From assembly GCA_947499125.1 (NCBI GenBank), contig CANMMP010000001.1:1116001-1180000 (forward strand): a stretch of 64,000 nt of DNA, read 5' to 3'. Position 1 is the stretch's first letter, and every line of letters starts with the position of its first letter. Position numbers and translations under genes: made by a program. Positions 43,521 to 44,208 of this stretch are shown here, piece by piece. A model generated the notes under the pieces. That model had not been told where the DNA came from. It searched no databases and was given only the letters and a program-made list of their open reading frames with translations. The stretch is from an uncultured Pontibacter sp. Its GTDB lineage: Bacteria; Bacteroidota; Bacteroidia; Cytophagales; Hymenobacteraceae.

Positions 43521-43591
43521 GGGGGATTAGCTCAGCTGGCTAGAGCGTCCCGAAGTAATTCGGGAAGGTCAGCGGTTCGACGACTCCGCAC
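43521..43591 (+). pseudogene. tRNA-Ala-like pseudo-unit A
   Basis: The first 27 nt (acceptor 5' strand, D-arm) are identical to the real tRNA-Ala at 43606. The anticodon arm is then replaced by TCCCGAA-GTAA-TTCGGGA (43548-43565). The 3' part AGGTCAGCGGTTCGACGA departs from a normal T-arm, and no acceptor 3' strand complementary to GGGGGAT follows. The 8-nt loop within the 5-bp stem lacks the invariant U33. It cannot fold into a normal tRNA. Confidence 0.8.
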
Positions 43592-43605
43592 ATTTTTAAC
43601 TTTAT

Positions 43606-43679
43606 GGGGGATTAGCTCAGCTGGCTAGAGCGCTTGCATGGCATGCAAGAGGTCATCGGTTCGACTCCGATATTCTCCA
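43606..43679 (+). tRNA. tRNA-Ala (anticodon GGC)
   Basis: Complete 74-nt cloverleaf. Acceptor GGGGGAT/ATTCTCC (two G-T pairs), D-arm GCTC/GAGC, anticodon stem CTTGC/GCAAG around loop ATGGCAT giving anticodon GGC, variable loop AGGTC, T-arm ATCGG-TTCGACT-CCGAT, discriminator A at 43679. The CCA end is not encoded. It is flanked by pseudo-units carrying parts of the same tRNA and is followed by a hairpin terminator. Confidence 0.95.
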
Positions 43680-43682
43680 CTC

Positions 43683-43716
43683 AACGGCAACTATTTTTAT
43701 GGTTGCCGTTTTTTTG
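43683..43716 (+). terminator. Terminator of tRNA-Ala
   Basis: AACGGCAAC (43683-43691) / GTTGCCGTT (43702-43710), loop TATTTTTATG, then TTTTTG. The same hairpin, loop included, recurs after pseudo-unit C (44172-44205). Confidence 0.9.
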
Positions 43717-43748
43717 TTCTAATCAGATTGCTGTTGTGTATCCTTTTA

Positions 43749-43818
43749 ATTGGTTCAACTGCTCAGAGCGTCCCGAAAGCATTCGGGAAGGTCATCGGTT
43801 CGACTCCGATATTCTCCA
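43749..43818 (+). pseudogene. tRNA-Ala-like pseudo-unit B
   Basis: A diverged D-arm (ATTGGTTCAACTGCTCAGAG, 16 of 22 positions of the segment matching tRNA-Ala, stem preserved with a wobble pair) leads into TCCCGAA-AGCA-TTCGGGA (43771-43788). A T-arm and acceptor 3' strand identical to the real tRNA (GGTCATCGGTTCGACTCCGA, then TATTCTCCA) follow. No 5' acceptor strand pairs with it. Its own terminator follows at 43824-43857. Confidence 0.8.
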
Positions 43819-43823
43819 CAGAT

Positions 43824-43857
43824 AAAAAGGCAACCGATATGGTTGCCTTTTTCGTTT
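43824..43857 (+). terminator. Terminator after pseudo-unit B
   Basis: AAAAAGGCAACC (43824-43835) / GGTTGCCTTTTT (43841-43852), loop GATAT, then CGTTTT. It ends 8 bp before the GIY-YIG start codon. It shares GGCAAC/GTTGCC with the tRNA terminator. Confidence 0.88.
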
Positions 43858-43864
43858 TAGGCAC

Positions 43865-44116
43865 ATGACCTACTACTTCTACATCCTCTATTCAGAAAAG
43901 ACAGACCGTTACTATGTGGGCAGTTGTCAGGACCTGAAAGACAGACTGAGTAGGCACAATGCCGGATACAGTAAATCTACTAAAGCCGGAGCTCCATGGG
44001 TGTTAAAGTATACCGAAACTTTTGATATGCGCTCTGCTGCTACAAACCGCGAGGCAGAGATAAAGAAAAAGAAAAGCCGAAAATACATTGAGCAACTGAT
44101 TAGCTCTGTTGCCTAG
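43865..44116 (+). CDS. Small GIY-YIG nuclease ending inside a tRNA-like sequence
   Basis: 83-aa stand-alone GIY-YIG domain, UPF0213-like. The variant motifs are FYI (5-7) and YVG (17-19), with Arg27 in DRLSRHN, an STKAGAPW segment and Glu63/Glu65 in NREAEIKKKKSRKYIE supplying catalytic or metal-binding residues, so it looks intact. The last codons (CTG ATT AGC TCT GTT GCC TAG) coincide with the D-arm of pseudo-unit C: ATTAGCTC and CTAGAGCG match tRNA-Ala exactly, and the stop codon TAG lies at the D-loop/D-stem junction. GIY-YIG enzymes include homing endonucleases; that role is inferred here from the tRNA-fragment setting. Confidence 0.9.
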   Translation: MTYYFYILYSEKTDRYYVGSCQDLKDRLSRHNAGYSKSTKAGAPWVLKYTETFDMRSAATNREAEIKKKKSRKYIEQLISSVA

Positions 44117-44168
44117 AGCGTCCCGAAGGCTTTCGGGAAGGTCATCGATTCGACTCCGATATTCTCCA
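44098..44168 (+). pseudogene. tRNA-Ala-like pseudo-unit C
   Basis: Starts GATTAGCTC-TGTTGCCTA-GAGCG, with the D-stem conserved and the D-loop altered; this part also encodes the GIY-YIG C-terminus. Then come TCCCGAA-GGCT-TTCGGGA (44121-44138), GGTCATCG, one change from the real tRNA (G to A), and an otherwise identical T-arm and acceptor 3' strand ending at 44168. The 5' acceptor strand is replaced by coding sequence. Confidence 0.8.
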
Positions 44169-44171
44169 CTC

Positions 44172-44208
44172 AACGGCAACTATTTTTATGGTTGCCGTTT
44201 TTTTTTAC
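44172..44208 (+). terminator. Duplicated tRNA-Ala terminator
   Basis: AACGGCAAC (44172-44180) / GTTGCCGTT (44191-44199), loop TATTTTTATG, followed by a run of T. It is identical to 43683-43710. Together with the T-arm, about 65 bp are duplicated between the two sites with a single difference. Confidence 0.9.

Follow-up and report, generated by a model that had tools for sequence, protein, structure and literature searches.

A widespread tRNA-linked GIY-YIG nuclease cassette of Bacteroidota with partial copies of the neighbouring tRNA gene

Small nuclease genes, tRNA genes and short repeats are associated in several described systems. Integrative elements at tRNA 3′ ends have, like the locus reported here, an intact tRNA at one end and a tRNA 3′ fragment at the other, and a fragment in that position is a hallmark of islands. 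In REP/RAYT systems, which also resemble it, a small nuclease-type gene encoding the HUH Y1 transposase RAYT lies beside palindromes, and related palindromes are dispersed in the genome. Seg homing endonucleases carry a separate DNA-binding domain. According to the excerpts of PMC13096335, the phage GIY-YIG enzyme SegB cuts within tRNA genes (motif RAWTSGAAC, 23/83 sites) and drives the tandem amplification of the tRNA and the nuclease gene by homologous recombination, the 5′ end of the tRNA sharing microhomology with the 3′ end of segB; an extra DNA-binding domain is described for I-TevI in the excerpts of PMC2988022. Here, we analysed a 64,000-nucleotide (nt) stretch of an uncultured Pontibacter sp. 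(contig CANMMP010000001.1, positions 1,116,001 to 1,180,000; hereafter the window), in which a GIY-YIG nuclease gene lies among an intact tRNA-Ala(GGC) gene and three partial copies of it, and we followed this tRNA-linked nuclease cassette in other genomes.

Cassette units measure approximately 300-450 bp. Each combines a single small GIY-YIG gene with a partial duplicate of the adjacent tRNA gene and its flank, and most loci have an intact tRNA gene alongside. The unit is linked to tRNA genes with a strand bias, its partial copy is local, and it occurs as mirror-image 3′ and 5′ types in which the copy has lost the anticodon arm, often to a perfect, GC-rich hairpin. Units form tandem arrays, and the protein clades are largely tied to one tRNA kind. 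SegB and the free-standing GIY-YIG homing endonucleases of T4-like phages, as presented in the excerpts of PMC13096335 and PMC2988022, resemble the cassette in the position of the gene beside tRNA genes, the tandem repeats, the tRNA/nuclease-gene microhomology and a drive by recombination, the last being presumed for the cassette. In contrast, SegB is a phage gene, while the cassette is chromosomal, encodes 83 amino acids, carries a partial tRNA copy with the anticodon arm lost or replaced, and has both 3′ and 5′ types. Judged from these excerpts, no closer precedent than SegB was found for arrays that combine nuclease and tRNA sequences, and in our own comparison the reverse complement of the motif given in PMC13096335 fits the tRNA T-loop. 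No description of a tRNA-linked GIY-YIG cassette was found in the open-licence PMC literature excluding preprints (titles and beginnings of abstracts among the matches listed), which is no proof of its being unpublished.

The tRNA-Ala(GGC) array of the window and its nuclease

On the + strand, the array runs from a leader through unit A, the intact tRNA-Ala(GGC), a terminator-like hairpin, unit B, a second hairpin and the GIY-YIG open reading frame (ORF), which runs into unit C, to a copy of the first terminator-like hairpin:

43499-43520, + strand: leader before unit A, copied at 43584-43605 (direct repeat D3, 43499-43547 versus 43584-43632, 86% over 49 nt including the tRNA 5′ part)
43521-43583, + strand: unit A, an ORF-less 5′-type copy with tRNA-Ala nt 1-27 (100% identical to the intact tRNA), an exact hairpin at 43548-43565 and a broken T-arm; like the A-type units of other Pontibacter
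43606-43680, + strand: intact tRNA-Ala(GGC) (ARAGORN; Rfam tRNA, 61.7 bits)
43681-43716, + strand: terminator-like hairpin and T-run 3′ of the tRNA, repeated after unit C (direct repeat D1)
43749-43819, + strand: unit B, an ORF-less 3′-type copy with a hairpin at 43771-43788 and the tRNA 3′ part intact (nt 45-75, 100% identical to the tRNA; D2 repeat, 86% to unit C)
43865-44116, + strand: GIY-YIG nuclease ORF, 83 amino acids, UPF0213/SLX1-like
44099-44169, + strand: unit C, a 3′-type tRNA copy with a D-arm region inside the ORF end, a hairpin at 44121-44138, T-arm and 3′ acceptor (D2 repeat; 79% to tRNA nt 5-75)
44170-44206, + strand: second copy of the terminator-like hairpin of the tRNA (97% over 36 nt to the hairpin after the tRNA)

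A first-pass annotation, made from the letters of this DNA, had described one intact tRNA-Ala(GGC) and three tRNA-like units, and all of these elements were recovered by ARAGORN, Rfam and repeat alignments; the tRNA at 43606-43680 was the sole one in the 64 kb by ARAGORN and Rfam (gathering threshold). Units B and C keep the T-arm and the 3′ acceptor and unit A the 5′ acceptor and the D-arm, as it had stated, and the complete small GIY-YIG gene was indeed found between B and C. Unit C additionally keeps the D-arm region: it starts within the 3′ end of the ORF, whose stop codon TAG belongs to ..CCTAGAGCG.. in that region. The duplication also reaches beyond the tRNA, with 43650-43721 (tRNA 3′ part and terminator-like hairpin) 96% identical to 44139-44210, and unit A is accompanied by its leader copy. 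The hairpin TCCCGAA-N4-TTCGGGA was exact at all three predicted places (centre GTAA at 43548, AGCA at 43771 and GGCT at 44121); allowing up to two mismatches, three matches were found versus 0.10 expected, and none of 100 shuffles reached three. The 7-bp arms are invariant within the window, as stated there, and vary across the family. The anticodon arm of the window tRNA-Ala(GGC) (43633-43649, CTTGCATGGCATGCAAG) is itself an almost perfect palindrome.

In the window protein, the GIY-YIG domain occupies residues 3-74 of 83 (Pfam PF01541, E=1e-14). It was the only Pfam match at E≤0.001, so that neither an HUH Y1 transposase nor, in 83 amino acids of mostly catalytic domain, the separate DNA-binding domain of Seg-type homing endonucleases was found. 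Y6, Y17, R27, H31 and E63, which we take to be the catalytic residues of the GIY-YIG fold, were invariant in 24 chosen alignment rows. The nearest solved structures by family profile were UPF0213 (PDB 1zg2 and 1ywl) and the structure-specific nuclease SLX1, with 1zg2 aligned over positions 1-80 of 83, and the Pfam and PDB profiles settle the predicted fold. We know of no tRNA-linked cassette for UPF0213 or SLX1. The ratio of nonsynonymous to synonymous substitution rates had a median of 0.14 over 47 pairs and spanned 0.05-0.14 among the six most closely related pairs used; purifying selection acts on the ORF.

A toxin-antitoxin system with the repeats as antitoxin RNA was set aside, the copies lying on either side of the ORF and terminator-like hairpins standing between the window units. 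A group I intron with a GIY-YIG gene was also rejected: the NCBIfam intron endonuclease model scored 23.5, far under its cut-off of 56.05, and Rfam (gathering threshold) found only tRNA in the window and in eight further loci, with a single tRNA in each of the eight.

Recurrence at tRNA genes and origin of the partial copy

The window protein was searched against 50 genomes of the genus Pontibacter, 28 of which matched at E≤0.001 (14 strong full-length and 3 partial matches), and in a collection of named species, from which the best 80 of 119 relatives were used; the best named matches were from Pontibacter. These loci were collected by protein similarity alone. Most of those listed have an intact tRNA directly upstream of the ORF and, directly downstream, a copy plugged by a hairpin. 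In 67 of the 78 named loci with enough sequence, a perfect YCCC[GC]-type hairpin followed the ORF at a distance of up to 110 nt; of 326 windows taken from other parts of these loci, 5 had one. Eleven weak-paralogue loci of the same genus (L032-L042; 36-44% identity) showed no tRNA in the stretch examined. A profile built from 24 rows matched 157/395 Bacteroidota genomes at E≤1e-15, as well as 29/100 genomes of one other family (a few genomes being common to both samples). Seven genomes picked for many copies had 6 to 18 matches each at E≤1e-10, the weaker of which may be other GIY-YIG genes, and named loci beyond Bacteroidota, including Cloacimonadota, Calditrichota and Marinimicrobia, mostly adjoin tRNA-Asp. 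The first-pass annotation had thought similar arrangements possible in other Bacteroidota and would have given up its reading had none recurred; they recur at about 20 kinds of tRNA gene. The covariance model R1 was discarded as a genome-wide detector, matching ordinary tRNAs too (395/395 genomes), and no counts come from it.

A census yielded 244 distinct ORF entries, 218 of them scoring at least 60, which are not independent because arrays and related species are counted repeatedly. A tRNA gene lay within 600 bp of 162 of the 218 well-scoring ORFs, representing 21 anticodons and sharing the strand of the ORF in 161 cases, upstream of it in 128 (3′ type) and downstream in 33 (5′ type). When only ORFs with at least 600 bp on both sides were considered, the count was 148/185. 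Some tRNA names are doubtful, such as the "Ser-gga" of L106, which itself bears a hairpin. The sole opposite-strand neighbour was the tRNA-Lys of L073 (2753-2826), a locus whose tail resembles tRNA-Lys. A preference for anticodons with pairing first and third bases was considered and dropped, since it holds for 113/162 entries but only 7/21 anticodons, the excess coming mainly from tRNA-Ala and tRNA-Asp.

The origin of the copies was addressed in 136 loci with a tRNA within 220 bp: the tRNA, extended by 45 nt of flank, was aligned with the sequence lying across the ORF from it. The median alignment score was 48.2 with the own tRNA, 22.0 with tRNAs of the same anticodon from other loci and 9.0 with other isotypes from other loci; the own-tRNA score exceeded the 99th percentile of other-isotype pairs in 124/136 loci and was the best of all in 87. 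For the tRNA's own downstream flank, no other tail scored higher than the own tail in 31/64 loci. Within single Pontibacter genomes, the sequence following the tRNA and that following the tail were 92% alike (median, n=7) and the tails of different genomes 75% (same seven), five genomes with an unrelated tail flank having been set aside post hoc; across all 12 genomes, the own-flank median was 75%, equal to tRNA flanks between genomes (75%) and above tails between genomes (60%). By the own-tRNA match and the likeness of the flanks, the copies arose locally or, where the flank survives, are kept alike by recombination. The earlier proposal that tRNA-like ends are rebuilt at each site fits these matches.

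The two types are mirror images. The 3′ type reads intact tRNA, flank, [ORF, tRNA copy, flank]n, and the 5′ type [leader, tRNA copy, ORF]n, intact tRNA; a few arrays (e.g. L242, L261, L270 and L278) had no intact tRNA in the stretch examined. An intact anticodon arm was absent from the copy in 107/124 loci, and the T-arm was retained in 90/103 3′ types, by a gap-tolerant alignment that scored some interrupted arms as kept. The plug hairpins differ in sequence between loci and are seated in the D-, anticodon- or T-arm. In 32 sequences, picked for a clear tail, which favours pairing, the hairpin and T-arm stems were 99.2% paired and double changes exceeded those of all 500 shuffles, with the T-arm partly following the tRNA. 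This covariation supports selection on the folded structure, in whichever molecule folds, as the first-pass annotation had suggested for RNA or DNA. A-type units were present in several Pontibacter genomes, one of them, G046 (L132), having a single weak GIY-YIG match (E=7e-5). Such a unit and the ORF-less units A and B speak for some independence from the nuclease gene, which the annotation had counted as damaging to its reading.

On a tree of 151 proteins, resting on 82 columns and poorly resolved, tRNA labels changed 36 times, versus at least 78 in 500 shuffles. Protein clades mostly stay with one kind of tRNA, with some switches, a pattern more easily reconciled with long residence or homing at one tRNA than with free transposition. 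These observations also bear on a putative RNA-directed system, in which RNA from the copy, its hairpin joined to a tRNA part identical to the neighbour, would bind the nuclease and direct it to tRNA genes, by analogy with TnpB and its omegaRNA. The protein has no separate DNA-binding domain, the end of the ORF and the structured copy overlap in 3′ types, that of the window among them, the paired stems are conserved and the stretch beside the hairpin matches the local tRNA gene. However, the matching tRNA gene next door stays intact, the copy precedes the ORF in 5′ types and protein clades follow the tRNA kind by themselves, and we consider RNA guidance highly improbable.

Arrays, vacant sites, islands and dispersed palindromes

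Among 40 regions, mostly picked for multiple copies, 22 contained at least two units; 41 of 45 spacings measured 300-450 bp, and in 33 of 45 neighbouring pairs the units were 96-100% identical over 180 nt ungapped. The comparison of tRNA-Ala loci in relatives, proposed in the first-pass annotation, did reveal sites lacking a cassette. In G029 (L133; no protein match), the flank after the tRNA matched that directly after the tail of G015 (L019; 81% over 1433 bp), and G010 and G007 gave a similar result (L146 versus L016; 79.6% over 1375 bp). As in Seg-type systems, relatives with and without the gene at one site thus exist, and gain or loss are both possible.

The same tRNA-Ala(GGC) shows traces of larger elements. 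A 46-47-bp 3′ fragment of it (100% identity) was present in at least 12 of the 50 genomes, in at least 11 of them 7-21 kb from the tRNA, and the flanks after the tRNA in L135, L136, L138, L139, L141, L144 and L154 resemble each other; ordinary integrase islands probably use this gene. The sequence following the nuclease tail is unlike the terminator of the tRNA in L017, L018, L020 and L026, and in L017 and L020 it resembles the post-tRNA flanks of genomes with a far 3′ fragment, as if the tail had served as attachment site. In G005, the tRNA itself seems to have been the entry point of an island.

Such islands could in principle explain the partial copies as attachment-site scars of tyrosine integrases and the GIY-YIG gene as leftover cargo, and both the apparent use of this tRNA-Ala and the 3′ fragment at the far end agree with this. 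Unlike integrative elements, however, the cassette units examined lack an integrase, measure about 0.3-0.45 kb, hold a hairpin in the fragment and have a mirror 5′ type; the sole ORF of the window unit is the GIY-YIG gene, and the other units read are too short for an integrase gene. With 300-450-bp repeated units around one ORF and the same layout at many tRNA kinds, the by-product reading is already unlikely, and we give it very little weight.

A system domesticated to benefit the host, perhaps as a decoy attachment site or a spare tRNA part that keeps integrases or tRNA-attacking defences away from the essential tRNA gene, would account for the purifying selection on the ORF, and the islands at this tRNA-Ala and the tail flanks of the four loci described above would suit it. 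We nevertheless judge it quite unlikely: the gene is patchy (157/395 genomes), near-identical tandem arrays and 5′-type units without a 3′ attachment part suit a selfish element better, and the island of G005 seems to have used the tRNA itself for its entry.

The arms of the window hairpins occur at 14 places of the 3.98-Mb window genome, 11 of them outside the array. Ten of these 11 dispersed copies have a 5-nt CTTG-type loop and one a 4-nt loop, and ARAGORN found no tRNA in 3 kb around any of them; the arms are therefore not specific to tRNA-like units. Some dispersed TCCCGAACTTG(T/C)TTCGGGA palindromes lie near other repeated motifs (L003, L008, L011 and others), and a TCCCGAA-type hairpin stands about 33 bp after another tRNA-Ala-like gene (G042:C47:2124-2141). 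Dispersed TCCCGAA-N3-8-TTCGGGA was present in 13/14 Pontibacter genomes with the gene and 9/33 without it (Mann-Whitney 8e-6, kinship ignored; 3 partial carriers omitted, and palindromes near the array subtracted by hand). Without one copy near another tRNA-Ala, the count with the gene was 12/14 (3e-5, kinship ignored, one genus).

This association raises the question of a nuclease counterpart of REP/RAYT, in which the GIY-YIG protein would act on and spread short GC-rich palindromes, the tRNA-linked unit housing the gene and the dispersed palindromes being its non-autonomous products. The palindromes seated in D-, anticodon- or T-arms of the copies and the proximity of the family profile to UPF0213 and SLX1 agree with such a role. 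In contrast to RAYT, the cassette protein is a GIY-YIG enzyme, a class for which we know of no strand-transfer chemistry, and pieces of the tRNA gene belong to the cassette unit. Moreover, the association ignores shared ancestry and relies on the manual subtraction, nearly all dispersed copies in the window genome have loops other than the 4-nt ones of the units and lie away from tRNAs, and the duplication of the tRNA flank is left unexplained. A REP/RAYT-like system is, in our view, unlikely.

Favoured explanation and the points that weigh against it

Altogether, the cassette is real and widespread, and we infer its mechanism, including the cut site, the role of the hairpin and mobility itself, from an anatomy that was seen directly. 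On balance, we lean towards a family of selfish nuclease cassettes that use duplicated tRNA pieces as recombination arms, SegB-like but chromosomal. The nuclease would make breaks at cassette loci, in the hairpin plug, the tRNA gene or both, and host recombination would repair them via the duplicated tRNA segments acting as homology arms. Such repair could amplify the units in tandem, keep the copies like the local tRNA gene and bring the cassette to tRNA loci that lack it or, in rare cases, to a different tRNA gene. With one tRNA left intact, the host would tolerate the cassette, and a copy without its anticodon arm could no longer serve as a tRNA and would perhaps cease to be a target. The first-pass annotation, which had likewise proposed a mobile or selfish element that targets tRNA genes, is partly supported overall: the match of the copies to the local tRNA and flank agrees with it, and cutting and present movement are so far only deduced.

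Several observations weigh against this explanation. A tRNA within 600 bp was missing for 56/218 ORFs, 37 of which had at least 600 bp on both sides; 12 of these 37 have a tRNA farther away (e.g. inner array copies), and 25 have no filter-passing tRNA in the locus examined (e.g. L091, L101, L109, L111, L114, L190, L282 and L301). L022, where an island seems inserted between, and L023, with a run of N at the tRNA, also lack a nearby tRNA. No clear copy was found in 12/136 loci. The 83 amino acids leave no space for a separate DNA-binding domain of the I-TevI type, the window protein had no match in phage or plasmid collections at E≤1e-5, and no movement was observed. In L130, L131 and L137, broken ORF beginnings, judged by eye, follow the tRNA; such decay makes loss likely to be common, so that the vacant sites, which may reflect loss as well as gain, are no proof of gain. 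The tRNA-Ala cassette of Pontibacter looks largely inherited and often lost, not newly inserted. Finally, a full-length 100% tRNA-Ala copy was present in 48/50 Pontibacter genomes, carriers and non-carriers alike, and if the tRNA sequence itself is cut, carriers would therefore not be immune. The strongest counter-evidence lies in the resident tRNA, which is unchanged, and in the signs that the cassette was inherited and lost within Pontibacter.

A bolder version, which we regard as rather doubtful, is a minimal mobile element whose lone catalytic domain would find tRNA genes by DNA shape (hairpin or cruciform arms) or by a linked tRNA-like RNA, insert beside them, duplicate a part and plug the duplicate with a palindrome, essential tRNA genes being its permanent safe homes.

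If the favoured explanation of a selfish, recombination-armed cassette is right, many Bacteroidota chromosomes (157/395 sampled) would harbour an overlooked selfish element of one 83-amino-acid gene that exploits essential tRNA genes yet leaves them intact, a chromosomal counterpart to the SegB-driven amplification of tRNA genes. It would account for many short GIY-YIG genes and partial tRNA copies that adjoin tRNA genes, and would offer a very small system for asking how a nuclease without a DNA-binding domain picks its site.
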